The position numbers and the translations under genes were made by a program. The notes below the pieces were generated by a model. That model had not been told where the DNA came from and did no database searches. It saw nothing but the letters and a program-made list of their open reading frames with translations. Positions 1,819 through 15,824 of a stretch of DNA of 23,679 nucleotides are shown here, in pieces. The stretch covers positions 1 to 23,679 of IMG/VR virus record IMGVR_UViG_3300025701_000055; one strand, written 5' to 3'. The stretch comes from a virus. Position 1 is the first letter of the stretch. Every line of letters starts with the position of its first letter.

Positions 1819-2244
1819 ATGTTTGGCGGCATACCCGCAAGTTTGTTAATGGACATCGGTCGTTCTGCTGGTGTTATGACTCAACAAGAACTAGACTTAG
1901 GAACACCACCTTGGGTGTTTGTTGACCCTAAGCATTTGACTTCTGTTCGAAGAGGTTATTCTTTATATACACCAAGTGGCAATCTAAGCGGTATTACTAG
2001 TTCAGATGACCATCCATGTTTTTCAGATACACGAGAGTGGCTAGGTCGTCATGGATATATCCGTATAGAACGTGGTTGGAGTAATGGTGATAGGGTGACA
2101 AGCCCATTCTACTTCAATAATGTATTGATGGACGTCGGTGAGCAGTTCAGTTGTGGTGCCGCAATGGGATATGGTAAGTACGTCGAGAACTACAATGATG
2201 GTCAACCCGATTACACTGTAAAGAACTATGTTGATGATATATAG
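1819..2244 (+). CDS. Conserved hypothetical phage protein
   Basis: 141 residues. ATG 1819 follows TAGGAGTAAGTA, a strong ribosome site. It begins MFGGIPASLLMDIGRSAG, and a C-terminal part with LGRHGYIRIERGWSNGDRV and FYFNNVLMDVGEQFSCG has the look of a conserved phage protein. I cannot tie it to a named domain. There is no signal peptide or membrane segment. It is the last gene before the 300-base structured region, and its TAG stop lies five bases from the first stem. Function unknown. Confidence 0.7.
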   Translation: MFGGIPASLLMDIGRSAGVMTQQELDLGTPPWVFVDPKHLTSVRRGYSLYTPSGNLSGITSSDDHPCFSDTREWLGRHGYIRIERGWSNGDRVTSPFYFNNVLMDVGEQFSCGAAMGYGKYVENYNDGQPDYTVKNYVDDI

Positions 2245-2248
2245 TATT

Positions 2249-2550
2249 GCTCACCTACCAATGCGTAGAAAGAGGTGACCAACGCTGGGTCTAAACAAGC
2301 GACCATATTGACCCCTAACGCCTATCCGTCTTATGCCTTTGACGTGAAGCGCAACCTTTGGGAGGAAAAACTAGGAATACACCGCCTAGTAATAGTCATA
2401 GAATCGGTGTACTCTAGAAGGGAGTTTAACATCCACCGCTTGAGTTTCTTAGGCAAAGATGGGGCGGTGTTCAATGCTTGTAAGCCCAGGTTCATAGCGT
2501 GGCAGATAATGGTAGTAAGGATTGGAAACGGTCGGCATCTACCCATTATT
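2249..2550 (+). ncRNA. Candidate structured RNA with an H-type pseudoknot, unknown class
   Basis: This 320-base gap between genes is visibly richer in G and C than its neighbours and carries nested inverted repeats. Helices seen by eye are TCACCT 2251-2256 with AGGTGA 2273-2278; GGGTC 2287-2291 with GACCC 2310-2314; CGTC 2327-2330 with GACG 2341-2344; CACCGC 2434-2439 with GCGGTG 2464-2469; and a long terminal stem 2506-2515 with 2539-2549 (one bulge). A classical pseudoknot lies in the centre: ACTAGG 2370-2375 pairs with CCTAGT 2385-2390, and its loop TACACCG 2378-2384 pairs with CGGTGTA 2405-2411. A 92-codon GTG-start reading frame (2275-2553) crosses the region, but its composition is unlike the neighbouring proteins. 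There are no tRNA, tmRNA or RNase P signatures. The class is unknown; the folding is manual. Confidence 0.6.
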
Positions 2551-2566
2551 TAAAAAGAGGAAACAG

Positions 2567-2710
2567 ATGAGTATTAAGAAAGATTTGAAAGCACGTGGTC
2601 TGTTTATCAATAGACGCAAACGCACAGAAATGTTATCTGTATCACTAGCAATGGTTGTTGGTGTTGGCGCAGTCACTATCGCGGCAATATTATTTTCATC
2701 AATTTTATAA
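2567..2710 (+). CDS. Small single-pass membrane protein
   Basis: 47 residues from ATG 2567, which has an AAAAAGAGG ribosome site directly after the terminal stem of the structured RNA. The N-terminal half is basic (KKDLKARGLFINRRKRTE). The C-terminal half is one hydrophobic helix, about residues 24-46, ending in AAILFSSIL. Positive charge before the helix predicts an N-in topology in the inner membrane. Small phage membrane proteins like this can be holin-like, lysis-inhibition or exclusion factors, but nothing here decides among these. Longer reading frames in the same phase start inside the RNA region and lack a ribosome site. Confidence 0.65.
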   Translation: MSIKKDLKARGLFINRRKRTEMLSVSLAMVVGVGAVTIAAILFSSIL

Positions 2711-2717
2711 AAAAGTG

Positions 2718-2746
2718 TTGACAATGTTTTAAAATCATGAGACAAT
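2718..2746 (+). promoter_or_regulatory. Sigma70-type promoter for gene 2777
   Basis: TTGACA (2718-2723), a 17-base spacer and GACAAT (2741-2746) lie upstream of ATG 2777. The -35 box sits in the shared context AAAAAGTGTTGACA, which recurs at 3110 and 11385. It is recognised by consensus only. Confidence 0.7.
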
Positions 2747-2776
2747 ACTCCTGTACTTGAGATTAGGAGATATATT

Positions 2777-3091
2777 ATGAAAAACGTATTAGAAATGTTA
2801 AAAGCACGAATGATTGAAGACTTCAACTTCTTCATCGAAAACGAACGTATGCAGAAAGAGTTTGCAAACGAGATTGAGTTTCGTGAAGGTCGTAAGTACC
2901 TTAAAGTTTTGAATCGTAAAAGTGTTTGGGGTTTCATCGTTCTTGATGACAAAGACCCTAAGTTTAAAGTCGGTGACGTTCTGAAAGCCGCAAGCTACAA
3001 TGCTCCCGCCCGTAACCATGCACGTGCTAACGTGTTCGAACCAGAGACTTTCAATAATCTTTTCTGGTGTGGCCCTGGTTACATTAGATAA
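2777..3091 (+). CDS. Conserved phage protein of unknown function
   Basis: 104 residues, starting MKNVLEMLKARMIEDFNFF. The segments EIEFREGRKYLKVLN, SVWGFIVLDDKDPKFK, VGDVLKAASYNAPARN and a final GPGYIR make a pattern I remember from small proteins of T4-like cyanophages and other marine phages. That family has no known biochemistry. An N-terminal helix is followed by a compact beta-rich domain; no catalytic residues stand out. It has its own sigma70-type promoter (2718-2746) and a GGAG ribosome site, so it is probably a strongly expressed early gene transcribed alone. Confidence 0.8.
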   Translation: MKNVLEMLKARMIEDFNFFIENERMQKEFANEIEFREGRKYLKVLNRKSVWGFIVLDDKDPKFKVGDVLKAASYNAPARNHARANVFEPETFNNLFWCGPGYIR

Positions 3092-3109
3092 AAAACTTGA
3101 AAAAAAGTG

Positions 3110-3137
3110 TTGACATCCACTACAGTTATGTTACTAT
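3110..3137 (+). promoter_or_regulatory. Sigma70-type promoter for the 3172 operon
   Basis: TTGACA (3110-3115), a 16-base spacer and TACTAT (3132-3137). The -35 box is again within AAAAAAGTGTTGACA. The leader continues to a GAGAGATTATATTATG start region similar to those of the other four promoters. Confidence 0.65.
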
Positions 3138-3171
3138 TACATTGTTGGTTTGATTTGAGAGAGATTATATT

Positions 3172-3405
3172 ATGAAGATTACAGTTGAACAGTTTAAAGA
3201 GTTTCGTGACTATGTCCATGATTTCTATGGCAAAGGTGGTATCTATGACCTTGGTTGTAGTATTCCCGATATCGAAAACGCCATCTACGTTTACTTCGGT
3301 AAGATGGCGCTGATTGATTGGTTGGACTGGGGTGATGGTGATACTGTTGACCGTGAACGTGTTCGAGCGATACTTGAAGATGATTTTGGATTTGAGGAGA
3401 TTTAA
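3172..3405 (+). CDS. Hypothetical acidic protein
   Basis: 77 residues starting MKITVEQFKEFRDYVHDFYG. It is rich in Asp and Glu (DWLDWGDGDTVDRERV and a final DDFGFEEI). It is the first gene after the 3110 promoter, with a GAGAGA ribosome site, and is followed two bases later by the next gene. There is no membrane segment or recognised motif. Strong acidity in a small early phage protein is reminiscent of DNA mimics or host-takeover factors, but that is speculation. Confidence 0.7.
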   Translation: MKITVEQFKEFRDYVHDFYGKGGIYDLGCSIPDIENAIYVYFGKMALIDWLDWGDGDTVDRERVRAILEDDFGFEEI

Positions 3406-3407
3406 TA

Positions 3408-3629
3408 ATGAAAAACTATGAAAAACTATTAGAAAGAATAGACACCCTTGGTGAAGAAATGCGTTACTATGGCAACCTTAGTGTTGACATGTTAAAACAT
3501 GAACTCAAAGTTAATAGCGACGTATTCTTTGCGGGTGCTAACATCTGTGGTTACTACAGTGACCAAGATGGTGGTGAAGTTGATGATGACTTTTATGGTT
3601 GTATTGTGGAAGAACTCCGGGAGTTTTAA
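3408..3629 (+). CDS. Hypothetical protein
   Basis: 73 residues starting MKNYEKLLERIDTLGEEM, with a helical N-terminus and an acidic C-terminus (DQDGGEVDDDFYGC). A GGAG ribosome site lies before ATG 3408. Its TAA overlaps the next ATG by one base, giving translational coupling. No known family recognised. Confidence 0.65.
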   Translation: MKNYEKLLERIDTLGEEMRYYGNLSVDMLKHELKVNSDVFFAGANICGYYSDQDGGEVDDDFYGCIVEELREF

Positions 3630-3820
3630 TGAAAAGTTTCAGCATAGCAATATTTGATAATGATTATAACGCATTGATAGATAGAGTCATAGTGAATGCT
3701 AAAGATAAAGGTTTAGTTGACACTTGGTGTCGTGAGCAGTCTTGGTCTGGATATGATTATATGTGTATCGAAGAACTTGACTTCGTTTCAAATAAAGCGG
3801 AGATTGAAATAAATGGATAA
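3629..3820 (+). CDS. Hypothetical protein
   Basis: 63 residues from ATG 3629, beginning MKSFSIAIFDNDYNALIDRV. An in-frame ATG at 3599 would extend it into the upstream gene, but the CGGGAG site five bases before 3629 and the one-base overlap favour the shorter form. A small alpha/beta protein containing DTWCREQSWSGYDYMC. No family recognised. Confidence 0.65.
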   Translation: MKSFSIAIFDNDYNALIDRVIVNAKDKGLVDTWCREQSWSGYDYMCIEELDFVSNKAEIEING

Positions 3821-4019
3821 GTTTTTACATTTAGTTTTATCGGCATATGTGGTGTTATTAATTTTAGACATACTCCGATCTTATTATCGTTACGACGAAC
3901 ATAAGTTTATGTCATTTGATAAGCCTACAGAGAAATGGTTTGATTTCTTTAAAGATGAACATAAATGGTCACTAGGTACTCTCATAGTGACACTGATATT
4001 AGGGATGTTATTCATATGA
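3813..4019 (+). CDS. Small two-helix membrane protein
   Basis: 68 residues. Hydrophobic helices lie at about residues 5-22 (HLVLSAYVVLLILDIL) and 53-68 (LGTLIVTLILGMLFI), separated by a charged loop of about 30 residues. The N-terminal Lys is weakly positive, so a hairpin with the loop in the cytoplasm or periplasm cannot be decided. It overlaps the preceding gene by 8 bases and the acyl-CoA dehydrogenase by 4 (ATGA). FadE of Escherichia coli is membrane-associated and the phage enzyme lacks that N-terminal segment, so a membrane partner role is conceivable. It could equally be holin-like. No motif decides. Confidence 0.65.
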   Translation: MDKFLHLVLSAYVVLLILDILRSYYRYDEHKFMSFDKPTEKWFDFFKDEHKWSLGTLIVTLILGMLFI

Positions 4020-5869
4020 TAAAAATGATAAAGAAAGTAATGCCTAAAATATCTGATACTGAACGTGCCGCACTTGAATGTGGCACAATCAGTATTGATG
4101 GTGATATATTCAAAGGAAATAAACCAGAAGTACGTAATCATCTTTCTTCTGTGCTCAATACAACCGAACAGAGATTCATCGATATTACTGTGCCTCAGTT
4201 GCTCGAACTTCAGACAGAGCATGGATATACAGAAGATAATAACTTGACACCACCTGTATGGGATTTTCTCAAAAAGAACAAGTTCTTTGCGATGATTATT
4301 CCTGTCGAGTATGGTGGGCTAGGGTTTTCTCCTTCTGCACAAAGTCAAGTTGTCACTAAGATTGCGTCTGCTGGTCATATCGGATTAGCAGTCACAGTAA
4401 TGGTTCCTAACTCTTTAGGTCCAGGTGAACTGTTGATGCACTATGGTACACAAGAACAACGTGACAAATATCTACCGAAACTTTCGTCAGGTGAAATGAT
4501 CCCATGTTTTGGATTGACAGGGTTATATAATGGTTCAGACGCCACAACATTAATCGATAATGCCAAGTCAATAGTCAAAAATGGTAAAGGCACGTATTCA
4601 GTCAATCTTAATAAACGATATATTACGTTAGCCCCTATTGCGGACCTTATCGGGATTGCTGTGAAAGTAGATGGTGAAATCACTTTATTTCTTATAGAAA
4701 GAGACCATCCTGGGCTACAGATTGGAGAAAGACATAATCCACTCGGTCAGCCATTTATGAATGGTACTATCAAAGGGCACATCGAACTCACTGATGAGCA
4801 TATCCTAGGCGGTAAAAAACAACTCGGAAAGGGTTGGCAAATGTTAGTTGAGTGTTTATCGGTTGGTCGTGCGATATCTTTACCTGCATTGGGTACAGCC
4901 GCATCTATCGTATCGGCAGTTGCGTCGGGTGCGTATGCACGTACACGTCAACAGTTCGGAATGCCTATCGCTAAAATGCAAGGCATACAAGAACCATTAG
5001 CAGATATTGCTTATCAGGCATATGTGAATACTGTAACACAAACCACAATCAACGGTGAACTACAAGCAGGTGAATCGCCTAGTGCGTTATCAGCGATGTG
5101 GAAGTATCAGTCAACCGAACGTGGGCGTATTGCTATCAATCATGCAATGGATGTAATGGCAGGTTCTGCGATACAAGAAGGACCTAATAACATTCTTGCT
5201 AATACCTATAAGAGTATGCCTATTGCGATTACTGTAGAAGGTGCGAATATTCTTTCACGTTCTTTAGTCACGTTCGGTGGTGGGCTTATGCGTTCGCACC
5301 CACATCTACGTAACTTGGTCGATTCGATACAAGATGAAAAAACTCTTTCGTTTTTAAAACATCTTTCATTAATGATTGGTCATACTGTGACAAACTTAGG
5401 TAAAGCACTTACCCGTAACGAATATGCATTATTTGCATTTACGAGTAATATGGTATTAACACTGGGTGCTAAGTATAAGCGTTCTGAATATATCAGTTCA
5501 CGTATGGCAGATATATTTTCGATACGTGTAATGCGTAGTGCTATTGACGAAGAACCCGAATCTGTTATTCGTGATTACTCACTGAAAAGATTACACAACG
5601 AAGAACTACAGGCATATAGAGACGTAGAGAATGAGTTACCTTTAGTTGCTGGTTTATTTGTTAGATTAGCACGTAAGATTAACTTTTTTAATACTAAACA
5701 TATCTCAGTAGAAGATAATGAAATGGCGGCTAATAGTATTACGTCTAAATCCACGTTTGTTAATAATATGATTAGTAAGATTCATATTTCAGGCAGACTC
5801 GCACAGTTGATTGACTGTTACACTAACGATACTCATGAACGAGAAGTTCAAGAAGTTGATAGTAAATAA
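4016..5869 (+). CDS. fadE: FadE-like acyl-CoA dehydrogenase (auxiliary metabolic gene)
   Basis: 617 residues from ATG 4016, overlapping the previous stop. FAD-dependent acyl-CoA dehydrogenases oxidise acyl-CoA to trans-2-enoyl-CoA in the first step of fatty-acid beta-oxidation. Stretches close to bacterial FadE are FFAMIIPVEYGGLGFS (90-105), TVMVPNSLGPGELLMHYGT (127-145), NKRYITLAPIADLIG (199-213), CLSVGRAISLPALGT (280-294), the second catalytic-domain region ARTRQQFGMPIAKMQGI (308-324), and PIAITVEGANILSRS (402-416). E408 corresponds to the general-base glutamate. FadE is about 815 residues; this version lacks the long N-terminal membrane region and has a shorter loop before NKRYITL, but it keeps a C-terminal extension of about 190 residues. 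The frame is intact throughout. It probably feeds host lipid catabolism during infection. The family assignment is strong; substrate length is unknown. Confidence 0.93.
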   Translation: MIKMIKKVMPKISDTERAALECGTISIDGDIFKGNKPEVRNHLSSVLNTTEQRFIDITVPQLLELQTEHGYTEDNNLTPPVWDFLKKNKFFAMIIPVEYGGLGFSPSAQSQVVTKIASAGHIGLAVTVMVPNSLGPGELLMHYGTQEQRDKYLPKLSSGEMIPCFGLTGLYNGSDATTLIDNAKSIVKNGKGTYSVNLNKRYITLAPIADLIGIAVKVDGEITLFLIERDHPGLQIGERHNPLGQPFMNGTIKGHIELTDEHILGGKKQLGKGWQMLVECLSVGRAISLPALGTAASIVSAVASGAYARTRQQFGMPIAKMQGIQEPLADIAYQAYVNTVTQTTINGELQAGESPSALSAMWKYQSTERGRIAINHAMDVMAGSAIQEGPNNILANTYKSMPIAITVEGANILSRSLVTFGGGLMRSHPHLRNLVDSIQDEKTLSFLKHLSLMIGHTVTNLGKALTRNEYALFAFTSNMVLTLGAKYKRSEYISSRMADIFSIRVMRSAIDEEPESVIRDYSLKRLHNEELQAYRDVENELPLVAGLFVRLARKINFFNTKHISVEDNEMAANSITSKSTFVNNMISKIHISGRLAQLIDCYTNDTHEREVQEVDSK

Positions 5870-5902
5870 AACCACTAGTATATAAAAAGGAAAAATAAAA
5901 TA

Positions 5903-6556
5903 ATGAGTCAAGTTAGTTTAGTATCATTATCTAAACCAAGTGCACATACAGGCTGTTCTACTGCCGAAGAGTTAGTAGCATATGCCGCACGTGTAAGTAA
6001 TCCCAATAATCAAAACAATACCGAGACTGCTCCACGATTGTTAAAGTATCTGATAAAACATGCGCATTGGTCGCCTCTTGAAATGGTACATATCACATTA
6101 GAGATTAAAACTACACGTGATATTAGTCGCCAGATTGTACGACATCGTTCGTTCTCGTTTCAGGAGTTCAGTCAACGTTATGCAGTAAGTGAAAACTTTG
6201 TTGAACGTGAAGCACGTCTACAAGATGAAACTAACAGACAGAACTCAGTTGAACTTGAAGAAGATGATAATATTCATCATGAGTGGTTACATGCACAAGG
6301 TCGTGTACGTTGGATGGCACAGAAAGAGTATGAAGCCGCATTGAAAATGGGCATTGCAAAAGAACAAGCACGTGCGTTATTGCCCGAAGGTCTTACAGAG
6401 ACTACATTATACATGGCAGGTTCGTTACGGTCTTGGGTACATTACTGTGATTTACGTATGGCTAATGGTACACAGAAAGAGCATATGGAAGTTGCAAAGC
6501 AATGTTGGGATATTATAGGGCAACACTTCCCGGCTGTTGTCGAAGCATTAGAGTAA
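5903..6556 (+). CDS. thyX: FAD-dependent thymidylate synthase ThyX
   Basis: 217 residues, a normal ThyX length. The ThyX signature RHRxxSxxxxSxR is present exactly at residues 80-92 (RHRSFSFQEFSQR). The C-terminal part has GSLRSWVHYCDLRMANGTQ, the usual substrate/flavin contact region. The enzyme makes dTMP from dUMP using methylene-tetrahydrofolate, NADPH and FAD. T4 itself uses a ThyA-type enzyme (td), whereas many marine T4-like phages carry thyX. With glutaredoxin and the MazG-like gene it forms the nucleotide-supply set. It starts 33 bases after fadE with an AAAAGGA site and no clear promoter of its own, so it may be read from the 3110 promoter. Confidence 0.97.
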   Translation: MSQVSLVSLSKPSAHTGCSTAEELVAYAARVSNPNNQNNTETAPRLLKYLIKHAHWSPLEMVHITLEIKTTRDISRQIVRHRSFSFQEFSQRYAVSENFVEREARLQDETNRQNSVELEEDDNIHHEWLHAQGRVRWMAQKEYEAALKMGIAKEQARALLPEGLTETTLYMAGSLRSWVHYCDLRMANGTQKEHMEVAKQCWDIIGQHFPAVVEALE

Positions 6557-6572
6557 TAAGAGGTGAAATAAA

Positions 6573-6815
6573 ATGAGTTTTAAATGGGATCGTGTATATA
6601 AAGCAGAAGAGTATTTCGACTCGTTGATAACAGAATATGCAATGGATTATATCATCGAGCATTATTCATTAGAAGACATCGAAGAGTTGACATACGAGCA
6701 AATGAAAGAAATTGAGCAATGGGAGTTCGATGAATCACCATATATTATGGGCATCGGTATTCGTAATGTTATTAACATGGCTGAATCCCGTTTAGCCGAA
6801 CTTATTGGAGAATGA
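6573..6815 (+). CDS. Hypothetical acidic protein
   Basis: 80 residues starting MSFKWDRVYKAEEYFDSLI, rich in Glu and predicted all-helical (EDIEELTYEQMKEIEQWEF). An AGAGGTGA site lies before ATG 6573. It sits between thyX and further small genes and ends in a TGA that overlaps a possible start of the next gene. No recognised domain. Confidence 0.65.
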   Translation: MSFKWDRVYKAEEYFDSLITEYAMDYIIEHYSLEDIEELTYEQMKEIEQWEFDESPYIMGIGIRNVINMAESRLAELIGE

Positions 6816-6817
6816 TA

Positions 6818-7018
6818 ATGAATACTGCAAACAATAAACCTTGGTTGTCACCCCATGGTCAATCAGTAGATATGGCAATGTGGGTAGTTGAGAACAAGTC
6901 TTATTTGTTAGAAACTGATGAGTATAAAACTAACACGACGATGCATCAATGGATTAAAGAGTCTCAAAAAATCATTGATGCGCATTATGAGTTAACAACA
7001 TCTGGTTGTGTACAATAA
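6818..7018 (+). CDS. Hypothetical protein
   Basis: 66 residues from ATG 6818 (MNTANNKPWLSPHGQSVDMA). ATG 6812 is also in frame, but GGAG at 6807-6810 is ideally spaced for 6818. Helical C-terminal half (TTMHQWIKESQKIIDAHYEL). No membrane segment or motif. Family unknown. Confidence 0.6.
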   Translation: MNTANNKPWLSPHGQSVDMAMWVVENKSYLLETDEYKTNTTMHQWIKESQKIIDAHYELTTSGCVQ

Positions 7019-7020
7019 TA

Positions 7021-7233
7021 ATGTTTAAAGAGGATGATAAACCAAAAGTTTATGTTCTAACCCAGGAAGGGCAGAATGTTAATGTTTATAACTGTTACAT
7101 CTCTGCCCTTAAAGCCGCAATCGAACATGTAACGATTGAACCAGATAACACCTTTGTCGATAGCCTTGAATATTTAATATATGTAGAAGGTGACAGAGGG
7201 CTAGTAACCATAACAGTAGAAGATTTATTATGA
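7021..7233 (+). CDS. Hypothetical protein
   Basis: 70 residues from ATG 7021 (MFKEDDKPKVYVLTQEGQ). No good ribosome site is visible; it starts two bases after the upstream stop, so it may rely on translational coupling. An upstream TTG at 7006 is a possible alternative. The sequence alternates strands and helices (VYVLTQEGQNVNVYNCY, then LKAAIEHVTI) and ends with VTITVEDLL. ATGA overlap with the MazG-like gene. Function unknown. Confidence 0.55.
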   Translation: MFKEDDKPKVYVLTQEGQNVNVYNCYISALKAAIEHVTIEPDNTFVDSLEYLIYVEGDRGLVTITVEDLL

Positions 7234-7505
7234 TTAACCGTGAACAACAAACACTGATTATAACAATGGAAGAGTGCGCAGAAGTTGCGCAGATGTGTAG
7301 TAAGATACTGCGCTTTAGACATATGGATAGTGAGTTACAGCATCAAGAAAAGACCATATTGTTAAGCGAAGAAGTTGGCGATTTACTATTGATGGTTGAC
7401 TTGCTTGCACGAGAAGGGTTGATTGACCTTGATGTTGCAATGAGTCACAGAGATGTGAAGAGACAAAAACTGTCTACATATAGTAACCTATTCGATGGAG
7501 ATTAA
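7230..7505 (+). CDS. MazG-like nucleotide pyrophosphohydrolase
   Basis: 91 residues, all-helical. The metal-binding pattern of the MazG/all-alpha NTP-pyrophosphatase superfamily is present: ExxE within MEECAEVAQ (residues 13-21) and ExxD within SEEVGDLLLMVDLL (46-59). These enzymes hydrolyse (d)NTPs to monophosphates and pyrophosphate, and phage versions have been linked to nucleotide pool control or to lowering alarmone signals. ATG 7230 overlaps the upstream stop. The short single-domain form is common in phages. Superfamily fairly certain; substrate not predictable. Confidence 0.8.
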   Translation: MINREQQTLIITMEECAEVAQMCSKILRFRHMDSELQHQEKTILLSEEVGDLLLMVDLLAREGLIDLDVAMSHRDVKRQKLSTYSNLFDGD

Positions 7506-7507
7506 CC

Positions 7508-7669
7508 ATGTGTAAAGAACATGTATTAGCAATACTAAATCAGCAGATAGAAAACCGATATAAAAAAATAGCAGAACATGATTCTGAAGGTACGCAACTT
7601 TATTTGGTTACAGTTGAGATAGCAACAATACAACAAATGATAAAAGAAATCGAAAAAAATATTAAATAA
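7508..7669 (+). CDS. Small hypothetical helical protein
   Basis: 53 residues, MCKEHVLAILNQQIENRYKK to EIEKNIK, from ATG 7508 with GGAG seven bases upstream and a TAA at 7667-7669. It starts two bases after the MazG-like stop. It is predicted helical, possibly a short coiled coil (TVEIATIQQMIKEIEKN). The product is too short for a family call. Confidence 0.6.
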   Translation: MCKEHVLAILNQQIENRYKKIAEHDSEGTQLYLVTVEIATIQQMIKEIEKNIK

Positions 7670-7683
7670 AAACATATTTTTTC

Positions 7684-7712
7684 TTGACAAGAACTCCTAG
7701 TTAACTTATAAT
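7684..7712 (+). promoter_or_regulatory. Consensus sigma70 promoter for gene 7746
   Basis: TTGACA (7684-7689), a 17-base spacer and TATAAT (7707-7712): a perfect match to the sigma70 consensus. Initiation would fall near 7719. The spacer and -10 box also form the left arm of a hairpin that covers the downstream ribosome site (see 7692-7742). Confidence 0.88.
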
Positions 7713-7742
7713 GATTATGTAAGTTGATTAAGGAGTTTTTTT
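7692..7742 (+). promoter_or_regulatory. Inverted repeat over promoter and ribosome site; terminator-like
   Basis: AACTCCT (7692-7698) pairs with AGGAGTT (7731-7737), and inside it AACTTA (7703-7708) pairs with TAAGTT (7720-7725). The arms are followed by a run of T (7736-7742). The right arm contains AGGAG, the ribosome site of ATG 7746. In readthrough RNA from upstream the hairpin would hide this site or terminate. RNA starting at the local promoter near 7719 lacks the left arm and would be translatable. Confidence 0.6.
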
Positions 7743-7745
7743 ATT

Positions 7746-7853
7746 ATGAATATTTTTACACCAGAAGCGTTACCAATATTAACCGTTGCGGTTTACTTAG
7801 GCATTTGTGCCGTAGTCTGGGCAATCAAAACACTTTACAACGAATTTAAATAA
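7746..7853 (+). CDS. 35-residue membrane peptide
   Basis: ATG 7746 to TAA 7851-7853. One hydrophobic helix spans about residues 9-27 (LPILTVAVYLGICAVVWAI) and is followed by a short tail KTLYNEFK. It is the first gene after a perfect sigma70 promoter and has AAGGAG upstream, so it should be highly expressed. The next gene follows after 11 bases. Tiny phage membrane proteins often alter host envelope processes, but no function can be read from this sequence. Confidence 0.65.
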   Translation: MNIFTPEALPILTVAVYLGICAVVWAIKTLYNEFK

Positions 7854-7864
7854 GGATTTATATC

Positions 7865-8308
7865 ATGAATATTGAAATAGTTGGCACTAAAAACAAAAAG
7901 TTGATTGCTTATATCGAACGTGTTTATGATTTCTTAGGTTTAATTGACACTTTCGCTTTTGTTGACTTTGAAATCACTAAAGAATGCGCAGGCGGTGCCG
8001 GTGGTTATTGTGACGGTGATGACGAAACTGTTAACATAGAAATCGCACGTCAAGACGCAATGGGGCGCATTCCCATGAAAAACTTAATGATAAACATTGC
8101 GCACGAAATGGTTCACGCCAGACAAATCGCAAGCGGTCGTTTGGTTAACCAAGGGTTCGTGCTTCGTAAAGACGACAACGGTCAGCAAGTTATGACTACA
8201 AAGCAAATCTTTGATGGCAAAGAATACGTCGGAGTTCGTTACGACGAACAACCTTGGGAAATCGAAGCATACAATCTTGAAGAAGTTATTTATGAAGTAT
8301 GCAAATAA
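7865..8308 (+). CDS. Putative zinc metallopeptidase (HExxH)
   Basis: 147 residues. HEMVH at residues 80-84, inside NIAHEMVHARQI, is a classical zincin motif with catalytic E81. EQPWEIEAY at 128-136 resembles the downstream glutamate region that supplies the third zinc ligand in gluzincin-type phage peptidases (E132 or E134). No signal peptide, so it would act in the cytoplasm; targets could be host or phage proteins. Like the small gene before it, it uses more C-ending codons than its neighbours. It sits in the operon driven by the consensus promoter at 7684. A metallopeptidase is likely; the exact family is open. Confidence 0.75.
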   Translation: MNIEIVGTKNKKLIAYIERVYDFLGLIDTFAFVDFEITKECAGGAGGYCDGDDETVNIEIARQDAMGRIPMKNLMINIAHEMVHARQIASGRLVNQGFVLRKDDNGQQVMTTKQIFDGKEYVGVRYDEQPWEIEAYNLEEVIYEVCK

Positions 8309-8323
8309 ATGAGGTGATAGACA

Positions 8324-8494
8324 ATGAAGAATCCAGTAGCAAAATATGCTAGACGATTTAATAAGTCAGTTGTTATGCAAGACAAGAAGAAAGAGATGAA
8401 GCGAACAGGTGGTCGTTGGAATCTTGATGATGATTTTTATGATAGCGCAGGTGGTTTTAATGAAAAAGTTGAGATACAGACTAGAAACAACTAA
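8324..8494 (+). CDS. Small basic conserved phage protein
   Basis: 56 residues, MKNPVAKYARRFNKSVVMQD to IQTRNN. GAGGTGAT lies upstream of ATG 8324. The MKNPVAK.AR.FNK start followed by a run of Lys (DKKKEMKR) is a pattern I remember from small proteins of many T4-like phages. The basic first half may bind nucleic acid. The 3' end overlaps the next gene by 35 bases in another frame. Confidence 0.7.
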   Translation: MKNPVAKYARRFNKSVVMQDKKKEMKRTGGRWNLDDDFYDSAGGFNEKVEIQTRNN

Positions 8495-8681
8495 CTGGAA
8501 TAATGTTGATTATAGCGTACCAAATCACATTTATATGACACATGGTACCGATTTATATGGATATATAAACATAGCAACTGGCGAAAAACAAATGTTCGTC
8601 AGACCTATGAAACAGTGGTCCGTAAAGGGCAGAACGTTTAAAGATATTAAAGATAGTGAAGTCGGAGAGTATTTGAAATGA
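8460..8681 (+). CDS. Hypothetical protein
   Basis: 73 residues from ATG 8460 (MKKLRYRLETTNWNNVDYSV). Upstream in-frame ATGs from 8409 would add a hydrophobic stretch that is really the frame-shifted 8324 gene. GGTGG before 8460 is the ribosome site. Beta-rich, with YGYINIATGEKQMFVRP. ATGA overlap with the cytidylyltransferase. Family not recognised. Confidence 0.6.
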   Translation: MKKLRYRLETTNWNNVDYSVPNHIYMTHGTDLYGYINIATGEKQMFVRPMKQWSVKGRTFKDIKDSEVGEYLK

Positions 8682-9145
8682 AAGTAGGTTTTACGTGTAG
8701 TACATTTGACTTGTTACATGCAGGTCATGTACAGATGTTACGTGATGCAAAAGAACATTGTGATTACTTGATATGTGGATTACAAGTAGATCCGTCTCAT
8801 GACAGATTAGAAAAGAATGCGCCCATTCAATCACTTGTCGAACGCTACACACAGTTGATGGCTTTAACATATGTTGATGAAATAATACCATACGAATCAG
8901 AAAACGATTTAAAGGATATTCTAGAACTGTATCATATAGATATACGTATACTTGGTGAGGAGTATCGTAATACTGATTTCACTGGTAAGGATATATGTCG
9001 CAAACGTGATATACAGTTATATTTCAACAAGCGAGACCATCGATTCAGTTCGAGTGACTTGCGCAGACGAGTGACACATAAAGAGAATGAAAAATGCACT
9101 GACAGTAAAAATCTTAGTGCAGAATCCGTGAGCGTGTTACTCTAA
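8678..9145 (+). CDS. TagD-like cytidylyltransferase
   Basis: 155 residues. The nucleotidyltransferase motif HAGH is at residues 14-17 (TFDLLHAGHVQML). The second signature, the ISTSxxR equivalent, is FSSSDLRRR at 123-131. These features and the length match the glycerol-3-phosphate/choline-phosphate/pantetheine-phosphate nucleotidyltransferase family, closest in look to TagD-type cytidylyltransferases. They join CTP (or ATP) to a phosphorylated alcohol, making an activated head group for envelope or glycan synthesis. Similar genes recur in marine phages. It overlaps the preceding gene by ATGA. The substrate cannot be inferred. Confidence 0.85.
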   Translation: MKVGFTCSTFDLLHAGHVQMLRDAKEHCDYLICGLQVDPSHDRLEKNAPIQSLVERYTQLMALTYVDEIIPYESENDLKDILELYHIDIRILGEEYRNTDFTGKDICRKRDIQLYFNKRDHRFSSSDLRRRVTHKENEKCTDSKNLSAESVSVLL

Positions 9146-9155
9146 CGAGGAACAA

Positions 9156-9650
9156 ATGCATAAAAATAAATACGATGTCAAAGTCTTAAAAGTAGTAGAC
9201 GGTGACACAGTAGATGTAGATATCAACTTAGGATTTGGTATCGTATTAACGGATGAGCGTGTACGTGTCATGGGTATCGATACACCAGAATCACGTACAT
9301 CTGATAAAGTCGAAGACTTGTTTGGTGAAGCCGCTAAGGCTCGTCTCAAAGAACTTATGAAAGGTCAAGTCAAACTTATCACAACAGAAGATAAGCATGG
9401 CGAAGATATGAAAGGTAAGTTTGGGCGAGTACTCGGTGACTTCGAAGTATATGACCATAAGCACGATAGATGGGCTTGTGTCACTGATATTCTAATCGAA
9501 GAAGGGCACGCAGTTGCATACTTCGGTGGTTCGAAAGATGAGATACAGGCGAAGCATATGGTTAATCGTCAGAAACTATTGCGTGAAGGAATCGTAACAC
9601 ACGAAGACTACGCAAAGGCTGAGAAGATTATGGAGCGTAAAAGAAAATGA
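9156..9650 (+). CDS. Staphylococcal nuclease-like thermonuclease
   Basis: 164 residues with the SNase (TNase) OB-fold signature: DGDTVDVDI at 15-23, RVMGIDTPES at 37-46 (R37, D42 and E45 match catalytic or calcium-binding Arg, Asp and Glu), and KGKFGRVLGD at 86-95, where R91 matches the second catalytic arginine. The helix ILIEEGHAVAYFG follows. Such enzymes cleave DNA and RNA to 3'-phosphates with calcium. There is no signal peptide, so the phage enzyme would work in the cytoplasm, perhaps to degrade host nucleic acid. GAGGA site before ATG; ATGA overlap with the lipoprotein gene. Confidence 0.92.
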   Translation: MHKNKYDVKVLKVVDGDTVDVDINLGFGIVLTDERVRVMGIDTPESRTSDKVEDLFGEAAKARLKELMKGQVKLITTEDKHGEDMKGKFGRVLGDFEVYDHKHDRWACVTDILIEEGHAVAYFGGSKDEIQAKHMVNRQKLLREGIVTHEDYAKAEKIMERKRK

Positions 9651-10021
9651 TTAGGTCAGCAATGCTAGGTTTAGCACTAATGATATCGGGTTGTTCAATC
9701 ACAGACGAGATACCATCGTTTCATGATGACAACGAAAACAATGCAATCATTGATGTTGTGTATGCAATCCATAAACTCGACTGTAAAAGTCAGTTTGCGA
9801 AACGACACGTGATGCGTATATACGATAAAACTACTTGGTTGAAGTTCTATGTACAATATAAGGGTTCGAAAGACGTAGAGAAGTTGATTGGTCCATTTGA
9901 ACAAACACTGACAGGTCTTTATAATAAGCCAAATGCAAGTGTTAAGTATTGCGAACTGAAACGTAAGAGTCTATTCAAACAATCAGAAAAGATTGCAGTA
10001 GCGATTATGTCGAGGTACTAA
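9647..10021 (+). CDS. Lipoprotein
   Basis: 124 residues. The N-terminus MIRSAMLGLALMISGCSITD has a positive start, a hydrophobic core and the lipobox ISGC, so Cys16 should be lipidated by the signal peptidase II pathway. Asp at +4/+5 rather than +2 suggests outer-membrane sorting. The mature part is soluble with Lys/Arg and two further Cys (DCKS, KYCELKR). Phage lipoproteins commonly block receptors or DNA entry (superinfection exclusion) or act as outer-membrane spanins. It lies among early-type genes, which favours exclusion; that is an inference. Overlaps the nuclease gene by 4 bases. Confidence 0.8.
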   Translation: MIRSAMLGLALMISGCSITDEIPSFHDDNENNAIIDVVYAIHKLDCKSQFAKRHVMRIYDKTTWLKFYVQYKGSKDVEKLIGPFEQTLTGLYNKPNASVKYCELKRKSLFKQSEKIAVAIMSRY

Positions 10022-10074
10022 TGGAACGATTTTATGAGTTTATTGCAGATATGCATTTAGGGGAGAGATACTAA
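10021..10074 (+). CDS. Possible 17-residue leader peptide
   Basis: ATG 10021 shares one base with the lipoprotein stop. The frame reads MERFYEFIADMHLGERY and ends TAA 10072-10074, whose last base is the A of the next ATG. This back-to-back coupling suggests ribosomes pass continuously through all three frames. It may only serve translational coupling. Confidence 0.35.
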   Translation: MERFYEFIADMHLGERY

Positions 10075-10328
10075 TGGTGAATGGATATGATATCAATGGT
10101 GGCGCACAGAACTTTGTCGAACAGTTTAAAGGAACTGAACTAGAAGGGTTAGGTTCTCGATTGGATGATATTGTCGAGATGTATCAAGATGGTGATATAG
10201 ACAAAGATACTGCGACCGAACTGATTCAAGATATTAAGAATGAAGAAGAGACTGAGCAGATGGCATCATCAATGCAGACTCGTTCGAACTTTCTTAAAGC
10301 CGCAGACTTTTTATTGAAAGTTTTATAA
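10074..10328 (+). CDS. Hypothetical helical protein
   Basis: 84 residues starting MVNGYDINGGAQNFVEQFKG. The middle MYQDGDIDKDTATELIQDI is acidic and loosely like a calcium loop, but lacks a full EF-hand pattern. Mostly helical with an MASSMQTRSNFLKAADFLL tail. GGGGAGAG ribosome site at good distance. Operon partner of the lipoprotein. I recall similar short helical proteins in T4-like phages without a function. Confidence 0.65.
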   Translation: MVNGYDINGGAQNFVEQFKGTELEGLGSRLDDIVEMYQDGDIDKDTATELIQDIKNEEETEQMASSMQTRSNFLKAADFLLKVL

Positions 10329-10346
10329 ACTTTTTTACGAAATGTG

Positions 10347-10375
10347 TTGACAACATAACCTCATGATGTTATTAT
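10347..10375 (+). promoter_or_regulatory. Sigma70-type promoter for the DUF932 gene
   Basis: TTGACA (10347-10352), a 17-base spacer and TATTAT (10370-10375, 5 of 6 consensus). Context ATGTGTTGACA. The leader TTGATTGAGGAGATTACATT precedes ATG 10408 and resembles the leaders of the other four promoters. Confidence 0.82.
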
Positions 10376-10407
10376 ATCATTGTAACGTTGATTGAGGAGA
10401 TTACATT

Positions 10408-11358
10408 ATGTCACACGAAGTAGAAACAATGGCTTATGCAGGCGAAGTACCATGGCACGGTTTAGGTGAACGTGTTCCTGCAGATTTATCACCTATGCAG
10501 ATGATGCGAAAAGCAGGGCTTGATTGGTCAGTTGAGAAACATACAGCGTTCGTTGATGTTAACGGTGAACGTATCTCTACTGGTCAAGAAGCACTTATCC
10601 GTACTTCAGATAATACTGTGCTTACTAACGTTGGTAAGAACTGGGAACCAGTACAGAATGCAGAAGCATTTGAGTTCTTTGCTGAGTATTGTGCCGCAGG
10701 TGACATGGAAATGCACACCGCAGGTTCATTAAAGAATGGTCAAATCACCTGGGTTCTTGCGAAAGTCAACGAGTCATTTAATGTTCTACAAGATGACCAA
10801 GTTGATAGTTATCTGCTATTCTCTAATCCACACCAATATGGTAAGTCACTAAATGTTCGTTTCACACCGATTCGTGTCGTGTGTAACAATACACTTACAT
10901 TATCATTAGATATGAAATCGAACAATGAGGTGCGATTAAATCACCGCTCTAAGTTTGATCCTTCTATGGTGAAGACTCAACTAGGTATTGCGCACGAAAA
11001 GTTTGAAGTGTATCGTGATATGGCTAGATTCTTATCTAAGAAACGTACAAACAAAAACGATATCGTTCAGTACTTCAATGATGTGTTTCCTGTTGCAAAT
11101 GCACCTAAGCGTGGGGTGAATAGTTATGATGACTTATCACGTACTGCTAAGATGGCATACGATGTTTTAGAAACACAGCCTGGCGCACAGTATGCCGAAG
11201 GTTCGTGGTGGCAAGCATTGAATGCTGTGACATACACAACAGACCACTTGCTTGGTCGTTCAAATGATGCTAGAATGGCTAGTGCTTGGTTTGGTGCTAA
11301 CAAGACCAAAAAAGTTAACGCTCTCAATCTAGCAGTTGAAATGGCAGAGGTGGCATAA
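10408..11358 (+). CDS. DUF932 (phage/plasmid-like TIGR03299-type) protein
   Basis: 316 residues, normal for the family. Its opening, MSHEVETMAYAGEVPWHGLG, followed by E.VP..LSP.QMMRKAGLDW, then FTPIRVVCNNTL (about 152-163) and WWQALNAVTYTTDH near the C-terminus, are hallmarks of DUF932, found on phages and plasmids. The biochemical role is unknown; the family is often near replication or recombination genes. It is a single-gene unit: its own promoter at 10347, a GAGGAGA ribosome site and a terminator overlapping the stop codon (11346-11374). Such strong isolated expression suggests an abundant early protein. Confidence 0.92.
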   Translation: MSHEVETMAYAGEVPWHGLGERVPADLSPMQMMRKAGLDWSVEKHTAFVDVNGERISTGQEALIRTSDNTVLTNVGKNWEPVQNAEAFEFFAEYCAAGDMEMHTAGSLKNGQITWVLAKVNESFNVLQDDQVDSYLLFSNPHQYGKSLNVRFTPIRVVCNNTLTLSLDMKSNNEVRLNHRSKFDPSMVKTQLGIAHEKFEVYRDMARFLSKKRTNKNDIVQYFNDVFPVANAPKRGVNSYDDLSRTAKMAYDVLETQPGAQYAEGSWWQALNAVTYTTDHLLGRSNDARMASAWFGANKTKKVNALNLAVEMAEVA

Positions 11359-11374
11359 GCCCCTCTCTTTTTTT
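11346..11374 (+). terminator. Rho-independent terminator overlapping the DUF932 stop codon
   Basis: AGAGG (11346-11350) and GGC (11352-11354) pair with GCC (11359-11361) and CCTCT (11362-11366) around an ATAA loop, with one bulged T. A run of seven T follows (11368-11374). The TAA stop lies in the hairpin. Confidence 0.7.
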
Positions 11375-11384
11375 CAAAAAAGTG

Positions 11385-11413: not shown

Positions 11414-11443
11414 ATATTTGTTGATTTGACTGGAGACTATATT

Positions 11444-11809: not shown

Positions 11810-11817
11810 GATAAAAG

Positions 11818-12137: not shown

Positions 12138-12164
12138 TAGTCATAAGTTTTTAACGAGATGGTT

Positions 12165-13100
12165 ATGGCTAATCTAGCAGGAAGAGAAATATACAAATAC
12201 GCTTTTCGTGTCGAAGTATTCATAAAGAAATACACGACTAAAGACCCGTTCACATTGGCGAATGGTAAGAAGGCTACTTTTGTTCCTAGCGAAGATGTTA
12301 TCAAAGCATTAAAGAATCAACAAGCAACAACTAAGTTAGAGTTATTATCAGAAGACGGTAAGACATACAAGTTTAAAGACTTGATGAAGACTGGCGAGTT
12401 TGGTGGTAAAGGTGCGGGCGGTTCGACTATCAAAGAAGATAGAGAACTTGCATCATTACGTCAACAACTAGCACAGATTAAAAAAGATACTGCTAGTGCT
12501 ACTGTTCCTGTCAAAGTAGGGCGTGAAATATATCATGTCGAAGATGCCGAATCTACACCCGGAACACCAAAGTCAGACTTTCACTTACTTGATGGTAATG
12601 GAAAAGAATGTGTTTGGATATCACACAAAGATGGTAGTAGACCACGAGACTTTCAACAGTGGGGCGGTATCTCACAACGTAAAGAACCAAAGATATTTAA
12701 TCACAAAGAAACACAAAAGTTTGTGTCTGACTTGAAAGAAATATTTCCTGATGGATTGCCTAGAGCAACATCATTGCATCGCAGAATAAAAGATAAGAAA
12801 CTAAAAATGTTATCAGTCTATGGTAACGAATATGACACAAATAGGTTGTCAAGGCAGAATACTTCTGTTATGATACAAGGGCCAGTTAACTTGGTGAATA
12901 AAGGTTCTTATTATGTTTTCGAATCAAATCATGTACACTATAATGGTGAATCTGTTGATGATGGTGGATTTGAGCCTGTATTCATGGCTATCTACAAAGG
13001 TGATAGAAGTGATGCTGGTGTCAAGGGTACACGTATCGTAATCATGCCTATTGATGGGCGTAAATCCAAAGAGTTTAACGAAGATAAGGTGATTAAATAG
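12165..13100 (+). CDS. Conserved phage protein, possible PD-(D/E)XK-like nuclease
   Basis: 311 residues from ATG 12165 (MANLAGREIYKYAFRVEVFI). An upstream ATG at 12159 has no room for a ribosome site, whereas ACGAGA is well placed for 12165. The first 130 residues are basic and partly coiled (RELASLRQQLAQIKK). The second part has TPKSDFHLLDGNGKECVWIS followed by HKDG and FQQWGGIS; this resembles the P-x-x-D ... (S/E)xK core of divergent phage PD-(D/E)XK nucleases, with Ser-His-Lys at the ExK position. A beta-rich C-terminal domain follows. First gene after a late promoter, and its TAG overlaps the GTG of the ligase-like gene. Relatives occur in T4-like marine phages, from memory. The nuclease call is tentative. 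Confidence 0.7.
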   Translation: MANLAGREIYKYAFRVEVFIKKYTTKDPFTLANGKKATFVPSEDVIKALKNQQATTKLELLSEDGKTYKFKDLMKTGEFGGKGAGGSTIKEDRELASLRQQLAQIKKDTASATVPVKVGREIYHVEDAESTPGTPKSDFHLLDGNGKECVWISHKDGSRPRDFQQWGGISQRKEPKIFNHKETQKFVSDLKEIFPDGLPRATSLHRRIKDKKLKMLSVYGNEYDTNRLSRQNTSVMIQGPVNLVNKGSYYVFESNHVHYNGESVDDGGFEPVFMAIYKGDRSDAGVKGTRIVIMPIDGRKSKEFNEDKVIK

Positions 13101-14320
13101 TGAACTTTTCAGAGTTTATCACAGAACAAAAAAATACGCATATGACACATCTAGAAGATAAAGTTCTTTATGGTGGTGTCGATGGTACACGTCAAGCAAT
13201 CTTTGCGTTACGTGATATGCGTGATATGCTTGCAGGTAAAAAAGCAAGTAAAGTCTCAGTCAAATGGGATGGTGCACCTGCTATTTTTGCGGGCACTGAT
13301 CCACGAGACGGCAAGTTCTTTGTGGCGAAGAAAGGTATCTTTAATAAGAATCCCAAAGTATATAAGACTAATCAAGAAATCGATGACGATACATCGGGTG
13401 ACTTGGCAGATAAACTTAAAGATGCATTGAAGTATCTACCTGAACTCGGTATTAAAGGTGTGATTCAAGGTGACTTCTTATTCGGTAAAGGCGATGTATC
13501 TAAAAAGAAAATAAATGGTGAGTCATTTGTGACTTTTCATCCAAATACGATTGTATATGCAGTTCCTGTTAGTCAAGCCAAAGAGATTATGAGCGCAAAA
13601 ATCGGTATTGTATGGCACACTAAATATACAGGTAACAGTTTTGAAACTATGAAAGCAGATTATGGCGTCAATGTTTCGAAGTTAAAAAAATCTAAAAACG
13701 TTTGGTCACAAGATGCTATGTTGCGTGATGTGACCAATGCAACTATGACTAAAAAAGAAACGGAGCAAGTGAATGAATATCTTTCAAAGATTGGCAAACT
13801 TTTTAACCAAACTTCTGGGACTACACTCAGAACCCTCGAATCAAACCAAGAACTCGCAAAACTCATCGAGCAGTTCAACAACACCTACGTCAGAAAAGGC
13901 GAAGTCGTCGGCAACACCGAAGCGCACACGAAAAAACTCATCAAATGGATCAGCGACCGCTACCAAAAAGAAATCGACAAGCGCAAAACCGAAAGGGGCA
14001 AGCAAGCCCAAGAAGCCAAGCGTAAAAAAATCCTCGACTTCTTCAGCGAAGAAAACAAAGTAAATCTTGCAAGAATGTTTGAGATGCAAAAACTTATGGT
14101 TTTAGCTAAACTCAAACTTATAAATAAACTTAATAGATTAAGTAATCTTGAAACTTTTGTTAAAACTAGCAAGGGTTTCAAGACTACTGGTCAAGAAGGT
14201 TATGTGGCAATAGACACATTTGGTGGTGATGCGGTGAAACTGGTTGACCGTATGGAGTTTTCATACAACAACTTTTCGCCAGATATTGTTAAAGGATGGG
14301 ATAAACCAACGAGGAACTAA
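13100..14320 (+). CDS. Divergent KxDG nucleotidyltransferase/ligase-like protein with capsid-targeting-like N-terminus
   Basis: 406 residues from GTG 13100. Ligase-superfamily motifs appear in order: motif I KWDG at 55-58 (K55 the would-be adenylated lysine), a GVIQGDFLFG stretch at 120-129 resembling motif III, motif IV EGYV at 366-369 and motif V VKLVDR at 379-384. That is the pattern of ATP-dependent DNA/RNA ligases. The N-terminus MNFSEFITE resembles the T4 capsid-targeting sequence MKTYQEFIAE with an I-x-E protease site. Residues 226-320 are a charged helical insert whose DNA also encodes another protein (13773-14063), and there the codons switch to almost purely C/A/G endings. May belong to the family listed as DUF6267. 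Ligase activity is an inference. Confidence 0.8.
   Translation: MNFSEFITEQKNTHMTHLEDKVLYGGVDGTRQAIFALRDMRDMLAGKKASKVSVKWDGAPAIFAGTDPRDGKFFVAKKGIFNKNPKVYKTNQEIDDDTSGDLADKLKDALKYLPELGIKGVIQGDFLFGKGDVSKKKINGESFVTFHPNTIVYAVPVSQAKEIMSAKIGIVWHTKYTGNSFETMKADYGVNVSKLKKSKNVWSQDAMLRDVTNATMTKKETEQVNEYLSKIGKLFNQTSGTTLRTLESNQELAKLIEQFNNTYVRKGEVVGNTEAHTKKLIKWISDRYQKEIDKRKTERGKQAQEAKRKKILDFFSEENKVNLARMFEMQKLMVLAKLKLINKLNRLSNLETFVKTSKGFKTTGQEGYVAIDTFGGDAVKLVDRMEFSYNNFSPDIVKGWDKPTRN
13773..14063 (+). CDS. Overprinted S/T/P/K-rich basic protein in the +1 frame of the ligase-like gene
   Basis: 96 codons from ATG 13773 to TAA 14061-14063, wholly inside the ligase-like gene in the +1 frame. CGGAG seven bases before the ATG is a proper ribosome site. 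The N-terminus MNIFQRLANFLTKLLGLHSE is an amphipathic helix. The rest is disordered and built of Ser, Thr, Pro, Ala, Lys and Asn, with many Lys-Pro and Ser-Ala-Lys steps as in linker-histone tails. In the overlap the host frame almost never uses T at codon position 3, although T is the favourite elsewhere. T there would put hydrophobic residues into this frame, so selection on this frame is likely. Possible roles are DNA binding or condensation in the head, or membrane interaction. Confidence 0.7.
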   Translation: MNIFQRLANFLTKLLGLHSEPSNQTKNSQNSSSSSTTPTSEKAKSSATPKRTRKNSSNGSATATKKKSTSAKPKGASKPKKPSVKKSSTSSAKKTK

Positions 14321-14322
14321 AA

Positions 14323-14769
14323 ATGGCAGATCCATTGTCTTTTAAAGACTTTTTAGCAGTCGATTATACTCCAGGCATGCCTGATTCAATCAGTTATGCG
14401 GCAAAGAAGCGCAAGCGTGGTGTGATTGGCGAAGACTCTCAAGAAACGAATGAAGCACTAGACTTTAATCAACGTAGAGCACGTGCACGTTCAATCAAGA
14501 AAAACAAAGCAAAGATTGCTATGGGTCGTCGTAGGGCGGCTAATAAGCAGGCGAGTCAGGATCGTTTGAAGAAACGGGCACGCAAGCAAGCAATGAATAC
14601 AGTATTCCAGAAACTGTCAAAGGGTGTTAAGCGTTCAGACTTACCTATGTCCCGTCGTCAGTCTATCGAAAAAAGGCTTGAAAAAATGAAGCCTAGAATC
14701 GATAAGATGGCGAGAAAGATGCTACCTTCGGTACGCAAAATGGAAAAAGAACGTAGACAGAGTAAATAG
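14323..14769 (+). CDS. Very basic conserved phage protein
   Basis: 148 residues. About a third of the residues are Lys or Arg in the helical part from about 50 on (RRARARSIKKNKAKIAMGRR, RKMLPSVRKMEKERRQSK). The start MADPLSFKDFLAVDYTPG carries an SFKDFL segment like the capsid-targeting-type N-termini of its neighbours, but has no clear (I/L)-x-E site. I recall relatives with the same layout in cyanophages and pelagiphages, function unknown. Strong basicity, late expression and this N-terminus fit a DNA-binding internal head protein. GAGG ribosome site; three bases after the ligase-like gene. Confidence 0.8.
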   Translation: MADPLSFKDFLAVDYTPGMPDSISYAAKKRKRGVIGEDSQETNEALDFNQRRARARSIKKNKAKIAMGRRRAANKQASQDRLKKRARKQAMNTVFQKLSKGVKRSDLPMSRRQSIEKRLEKMKPRIDKMARKMLPSVRKMEKERRQSK

Positions 14770-14777
14770 GATATTAA

Positions 14778-15824
14778 ATGTTTCCCTCATTCAAACAATA
14801 CTTAGTTGAAGAAGAAAGAGAAGTTTATTTTACTTTTGGTAGGATGAATCCGCCTACTATTGGGCATGGTAAGTTAATGAATGTTATGTCTGCAAAAGCA
14901 GGCAAGAATCCATACAAAGTTTACCTATCTTCATCTCAAGATTCAAAAAAGAATCCTCTGTCATACGAACAGAAGATTAAACATGCACGTAAGATGTTCC
15001 CAAAACATGCACGTAGTATTATTTTAAATAAAAAGTTAAAAAATGTATTTGATGTTGCTGTAGCACTATATGACCAAGGGTTTAATAAGATTAACATGGT
15101 TGTTGGTGCTGATAGAATAACAGAGTTTAAAACATTATTAGAGAAATATAATGGTAAGAAAGCCCGTCATGGCTTCTATAACTTTGAGAAGATTAATGTT
15201 ATTTCTGCGGGTGAGCGTGATCCCGATGCAGATGATGTAACTGGAATGAGCGCAAGTAAACAACGTAAGAATGCTGAAAATAATGATTTCGCAACATTCT
15301 CGCAAGGCGTTCCTAAAACCATGTCTAATCAAGATACGAAACGTTTATTCAATGATGTTCGTTCTGGTATGGGATTAAAAGAATCAAAGACATTTAAGAA
15401 TCATATCGAACTAGGACCTGTATCAGATATTCGAGAGAAGTATATCGAAGGGCAACTGTTCAACGAAGATGACCAAGTTGTTGTAAAAGCCACAGGTGAG
15501 ATGGGGCGTGTATTCCGTTTAGGAACGAACTACGTTATCGTCGAACTTGAAGAAGGGCGTATATCACGTCAATGGTTAAACTCAGTCGAGTTAGTCAGCG
15601 AAGTGATGAAAACAGATGACGGTACACCTGAAGCAACTCGAAAGATGAAGAAGAAGGTTCCAGGTCAAGAAGAAATACCTGTTGTTGAAGAAGACGAAGT
15701 TTCAATGGCACGTAAAAAGATTGAACTAGAAGTTGGTGCTGATAAAAGACGACACGATAAAATCTTAGATAGAGCACGTCTTGCTAGAGCAAAGCGCAAA
15801 AATCGTGAAACGAAAGTTGATTAA
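14778..15824 (+). CDS. HxGH-type nucleotidyltransferase with KOW-like domain
   Basis: 348 residues. Domain 1 (about 14-185) is a cytidylyltransferase/NMN adenylyltransferase-like Rossmann domain: GRMNPPTIGH at 21-30 is the phosphate-binding (T/H)xGH motif, VVGADRITEF at 108-117 and TGMSASKQR at 155-163 is the ISSTxxR-like signature. Domain 2 (about 225-275), FNEDDQVVVKATGEMG and YVIVELEEGRISRQWL, resembles a KOW/SH3 barrel. A charged helical tail follows. The N-terminus MFPSFKQYLVE has the F-x-x-[FY]-[IL]-x-E capsid-targeting pattern. Possible substrates are NMN, nucleotidyl phosphates or a nucleic acid; the sequence does not say. Late gene in the same operon as the ligase-like protein. Confidence 0.85.
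   Translation: MFPSFKQYLVEEEREVYFTFGRMNPPTIGHGKLMNVMSAKAGKNPYKVYLSSSQDSKKNPLSYEQKIKHARKMFPKHARSIILNKKLKNVFDVAVALYDQGFNKINMVVGADRITEFKTLLEKYNGKKARHGFYNFEKINVISAGERDPDADDVTGMSASKQRKNAENNDFATFSQGVPKTMSNQDTKRLFNDVRSGMGLKESKTFKNHIELGPVSDIREKYIEGQLFNEDDQVVVKATGEMGRVFRLGTNYVIVELEEGRISRQWLNSVELVSEVMKTDDGTPEATRKMKKKVPGQEEIPVVEEDEVSMARKKIELEVGADKRRHDKILDRARLARAKRKNRETKVD

Follow-up and report, generated by a model that had tools for sequence, protein, structure and literature searches.

The fadE locus

The DNA analysed is a virus record (IMG/VR), and its whole stretch of 23,679 nucleotides is referred to here as the window. Translation of the window gave an intact ORF of 617 residues followed by a stop, encoding an acyl-CoA dehydrogenase of the FadE type (Table 1), the bacterial enzyme that starts the burning of fatty acids by carrying out the first step of beta-oxidation. 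The stop codon of the small ORF upstream overlaps the fadE start (ATGA), and the two are therefore probably translationally coupled. An alternative longer start lies in frame at 3965; the homologues on two further viral contigs, L002 and L008, start at the position equivalent to 4016. The 617-codon frame, its ATGA overlap and its position between phage genes had been described in a first-pass annotation, and were borne out by the translation, by the ORF coordinates and by matches of the neighbours to PHROG families (ThyX, cytidyltransferase and others).

Table 1. Features at and around fadE in the window
Feature	Position	Strand	Remarks
Breakpoint and ~60-bp repeated element	2245..2306	+	98% identity with L008 ends at 2248; the next ~28 bp match L002 after its fadE stop
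Small ORF, 68 aa, with hydrophobic stretches	3813..4019	+	Upstream of fadE; stop overlaps fadE start (ATGA)
FadE-type acyl-CoA dehydrogenase	4016..5869	+	617 aa; without N-terminal membrane region; C-terminal domain shortened; catalytic base E408
Phage-type flavin-dependent thymidylate synthase ThyX	5903..6556	+	Next gene downstream of fadE
Phage marker block: phrog_13937, phrog_455, small ORF, cytidyltransferase phrog_395	12159..15824	+	Partly syntenic with Phage C48C1

Elsewhere in the window are a phage-encoded glutaredoxin (380-622) and a phage-encoded GroES-like co-chaperonin (Cpn10; 11818-12075); no tRNA genes were found in the window. A 75-bp direct repeat (18-92 and 316-390, 79% identical) spans a gene end and is also present in L008.

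fadE is carried by several phage lineages

An independent contig, L001, repeats window positions 2100-15184 at 99.9% identity, one indel aside, so both fadE junctions recur independently. The indel lies at window 8672-8683, where L001 has approximately 250 extra bases that change the start of a nucleotidyltransferase ORF; this may reflect strain variation or a difference between assemblies. A protein search, IMG/VR alignment scans and a phage-specific DNA pattern identified two diverged phage copies of the gene. The copy in L002 is 83% identical and neighbours two tRNAs and genes for a helicase-like and a MazG-like protein; the copy in L008 is 67% identical, and a gp23-type capsid gene lies 6 kb from it. 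Two further viral scans, with a phage-only alignment and an FGGGLM DNA pattern, returned no additional phage FadE, and a match in L126 was discarded as due to chance. It had been suggested that viral contigs be searched for fadE next to thyX; this search did yield further phage copies, in L002 and L008, but in neither is thyX adjacent to fadE. L002 also encodes, 0.5 kb downstream of fadE and just past the two tRNA genes, a di-haem cytochrome c peroxidase/MauG-type protein with a lipoprotein-like start (10021-11427; Pfam CCP_MauG), and L008 carries, besides fadE and the capsid gene, a uroporphyrinogen decarboxylase gene of haem synthesis (hemE, 9483-10469; Pfam URO-D, 210 bits).

The L008 capsid protein is 65.6% identical to that of Sinorhizobium phage phiN3, 64.3% to those of Melnitz phages and 62.7% to that of a Synechococcus phage, and by this gene L008 is placed as a T4-like phage of the Kyanoviridae and phiM12-like neighbourhood. 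No capsid gene lies within the 23,679-nt window, which shares gene order with Phage C48C1 instead: the block at 13055-18165 is arranged as in that complete 156-kb genome, whose record assigns it to the Kyanoviridae. Phage genes flank fadE in more than one phage (window, L001, L002 and L008), as in a phage auxiliary metabolic gene, for which it is a candidate; three independent contig lineages carry it, and its codon usage resembles that of neighbouring phage genes (r = 0.91). The gene truly belongs to a lineage of marine T4-like phages. The label 'lytic-type' given at first pass fits a T4-like phage, the genome being known here as a fragment only.

The alternative that the gene is bacterial DNA, as an assembly chimera, a host flank or a recent passenger, draws on the fact that such DNA is present in viral collections. 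Contigs L009-L011, classed as viral, contain a full-length fadE beside a tyrosine integrase; this fadE groups with those of Colwellia and Alteromonas, and the contigs were rejected as prophage host flanks. The PHROG family phrog_15032 probably exists for the same reason, i.e. host fadE beside a prophage. A tblastn search of a phage genome collection matched 14 records, and every match inspected was bacterial DNA: Acinetobacter phage MD-2021a has bacterial metabolic genes in the 12 kb surrounding fadE, Microcystis phage MaAM05 carries fliM, murJ and bioD, ECO95 is a 2.9-kb gmhA-fadE fragment, and MT835486 holds a clostridial-type butyrate operon with etfBA. The inspected stretches of MW495066.1, MT835486.1, OR845372.1 and CAKLQH020000036, all filed as phage, are bacterial chromosome, and through misfiled records of this kind databases can come to list acyl-CoA dehydrogenases as phage genes in error. 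For the gene studied here a bacterial origin of the DNA is nevertheless highly improbable, and is refuted by the independent contigs: both junctions recur in L001, L002 and L008 hold diverged copies among other phage genes, and the copies are monophyletic (100/100), distant from sampled bacteria and of phage-like codon usage. The first-pass concern that an assembly error had placed a bacterial gene in a phage can be set aside.

The gene occupies different genome positions in the three divergent phage copies. Past window base 2248 L008 continues into fadE; in the window, fadE follows after another 1.8 kb. Given this divergence and the ~28-bp match to L002, the simplest reading of the three contigs is that fadE may move as a cassette between genome sites. 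The ~60-bp element at the breakpoint consists of TGCTCACCTACCAnTGCGTAGAAAGAGGT, a variable hairpin and GCGACCAT, and was found in five viral contig types (window 2248-2306, L002 9518-9578, L122, L124 and L125). Its flanks are invariant while the hairpin arms covary in a compensating manner (GACC/GGTC, ACCCG/CGGGT, ATCCG/CGGAT). In L002 and L125 its neighbourhood includes tRNAs, and in L122 a gene whose AP2 match stays below threshold. Searches against Rfam gave no match for the element and only chance-level matches across the window; a structured RNA is one possible identity, a mobile-element end another.

Family assignment, fold and active site

The Pfam domains Acyl-CoA_dh_N, Acyl-CoA_dh_M, Acyl-CoA_dh_1 and ACDH_C all scored above their gathering thresholds and far beyond chance. 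The three acyl-CoA dehydrogenase domains occur in order, N-terminal (PF02771, 60.9 bits), middle (PF02770, 39.1 bits) and C-terminal (PF00441, 56.2 bits), followed by the FadE-specific C-terminal domain PF09317 (ACDH_C), which lacks approximately 100 residues and scored 27.9 bits against a gathering score of 25. Among NCBI families the protein comes closest to FadE models, scoring below the curated cut-off of each: PRK09463 (578.4/600 bits, E 2e-173), PRK13026 (569.4/608 bits) and FadE_coli (469.7/1300 bits). Scores just below these cut-offs mark the protein as FadE-like, clearly an acyl-CoA dehydrogenase but not a standard FadE. AlphaFold2 returned a confident acyl-CoA dehydrogenase fold (pLDDT 88.6, pTM 0.91), with lowest confidence at residues 171-180 (block mean 59). 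Domains, family models and fold together uphold the original description of an intact acyl-CoA dehydrogenase. That description also recorded the missing N-terminal membrane region of FadE, and correctly so, as approximately 85 residues are absent from the phage proteins; this is not a phage-specific trait, however, since bacterial FadEs of approximately 746 amino acids start at the same place. The shortening of the C-terminal domain relative to bacterial FadE had not been remarked on.

The VEGAN motif spans residues 407-411, which makes E408 the catalytic glutamate, and the alignment confirmed the position proposed for it. In 61 aligned sequences, 58 of them bacterial, E408, T168, G173, S174, D175, T204, R285, R311 and F314 are invariant. 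Aligned with ACAD9, the invariant residues land on FCLTEP..GSDA, the KxWIT segment, R..F and the catalytic Glu of FEGTNE. The residues that we take to contact FAD were assigned from established MCAD and VLCAD structures. No loss of FAD- or acyl-CoA-binding residues was found, the FAD, substrate and catalytic Glu positions all being invariant.

The best structural matches of the model were full-length VLCAD, ACAD9 and two-domain bacterial acyl-CoA dehydrogenases (Z 30-32, rmsd ~2.8 A, ~480 residues), with human VLCAD at Z 31.7 and rmsd 2.8 A over 480 aligned residues. ACAD9 has an established assembly role in complex I, and its rank among these matches raises the idea of a non-enzymatic binding or decoy protein that sequesters host electron-transfer flavoprotein (ETF), acyl-CoA or respiratory components. 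We regard this as improbable: the catalytic Glu and flavin positions are invariant over a large divergence, and a pure scaffold would not need them.

Several changes set the phage copies apart. The loop at 169-172 beside the FAD site, SPEA almost universally in bacterial FadE, reads GLYN or GLHN in every phage copy, Q422 is replaced by G, and 25 of the 154 bacteria-conserved columns are changed. All phage copies also have a shortened loop in the middle (beta-) domain, from which 10 residues are missing after 218. The altered loop beside the FAD site, the low model confidence at 171-180 and the changed columns count against a FadE-type function in beta-oxidation. The alterations near the flavin, the shortened beta-domain loop and C-terminal domain, and a long phage stem branch (1.5 to 2.1 changes per site) could instead indicate an active dehydrogenase with a different substrate or purpose, such as the remodelling of acyl-CoA, acyl-ACP or membrane lipid pools or the synthesis of a special acyl product, in place of a contribution to energy metabolism. 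Such a shift in purpose appears unlikely to us, as the catalytic Glu and the FAD and substrate positions are unchanged, the branch can be explained by fast evolution alone, and no lipid-synthesis gene adjoins fadE.

Selection and likely source of the gene

Every tree recovers the phage copies as a single, fully supported clade (100/100), far from any sampled bacterium. Between the window and L002 copies dN was 0.11-0.13 and dS 1.2-1.6, so phage FadE is under purifying selection; the resulting dN/dS of approximately 0.07-0.10 refers to this pair, dS to L008 being saturated.

A phylogeny against bacterial FadE had been proposed as a means to name donor and host, and gave a suggestive answer for the donor. 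The full-length tree named no donor and carried long-branch warnings. In a core tree (residues 48-432, distant outgroup left out) the phage clade joined the ~746-aa membrane-free FadEs of Pseudoalteromonas, Shewanella and Glaciecola (86/90). These FadEs and the phage proteins start at the same place and have 12 uncommon residues in common, against 0-7 in eight control clades of other sizes; both the start point and the shared residues were seen partly outside the core-tree columns. The likeliest source of the phage gene would be this ~746-aa group, for which the sequence comparisons are suggestive, and because core tree, start point and uncommon residues agree, our best guess is a source, and perhaps a host, among marine Alteromonadales.

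A proposed role in lipid breakdown during infection

We consider it probable that the phage gene encodes a soluble, compact, FAD-dependent FadE-type enzyme that feeds host beta-oxidation during infection, its biochemistry being what we infer from sequence and model. The soluble phage FadE would bind FAD, and E408 would abstract the alpha proton from an acyl-CoA of long or medium chain length to give trans-2-enoyl-CoA, the electrons passing to host ETF and on to the respiratory chain. By supplying the first step of beta-oxidation the phage might keep lipid breakdown going, with its yield of reducing power and acetyl-CoA, during the shutdown of host genes. That a T4-related phage has long retained an intact, shortened FadE suggests that lipid burning is sustained in the infected host, and the first-pass proposal that the phage pushes host lipid breakdown is plausible. 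No other beta-oxidation genes were found in the fragments at hand, which are a small part of a genome of approximately 150 kb.

A fuller account, which we offer tentatively and as possible rather than probable, is that T4-like phages of marine Alteromonadales derived a compact phage-specific FadE long ago from the membrane-free FadE of their host, that the flavin site and C-terminal domain were reshaped, and that selection has preserved the gene, as a cassette that moves between genome sites, for lipid breakdown during infection. Lytic infection is usually discussed in terms of carbon redirected to nucleotides. A phage that brings the enzyme for opening beta-oxidation would instead draw on host lipid as fuel, which agrees with the increase of fatty-acid degradation proteins seen at low phosphate in infected Pseudoalteromonas (PMC11170926).

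Comparison with known systems

The gene had been flagged as one without a well-studied phage counterpart, a claim that seems to hold for the lineage and not for the general function. Pacific Ocean viromes contain fadB and fadL (PMC4053976) and a transcribed acyl-CoA dehydrogenase is present on soil viral contigs (PMC8390657). As far as the consulted parts of these reports go, they give read or contig annotations and trace no family to a T4-like lineage. Within the open-access literature, our searches turned up no account of FadE-type genes in T4-like phages. Phage lipid-metabolism genes are thus known as a kind, and the compact FadE lineage of T4-type phages seems to be undescribed. The sole match in a BFVD structure search, the acyl-CoA oxidase of Tupanvirus, is likewise a virus-borne gene of fatty-acid breakdown, but is a giant-virus oxidase with 16% identity.

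Among cellular enzymes, mitochondrial VLCAD, ACAD9 and the bacterial two-domain acyl-CoA dehydrogenases 2z1q and 3owa have a like fold over nearly the full length, although they come from other phyla and are only 18-24% identical to the phage protein. The E. coli-type FadE (814 aa) is homologous over phage residues 2-462 and shares the VEGAN motif; unlike the phage protein it has the N-terminal membrane region and a C-terminal domain of full length. The ~746-aa FadEs of Pseudoalteromonas, Shewanella, Glaciecola and Paraglaciecola (e.g. L015, L027 and L039) resemble the phage protein in their start, in having no upstream membrane helices and in their catalytic residues. They are approximately 40% identical to it, and differ in a C-terminal domain that is approximately 100-130 residues longer and in having the SPEA loop and FGQG where the phage copies have GLYN or GLHN and FGGG.
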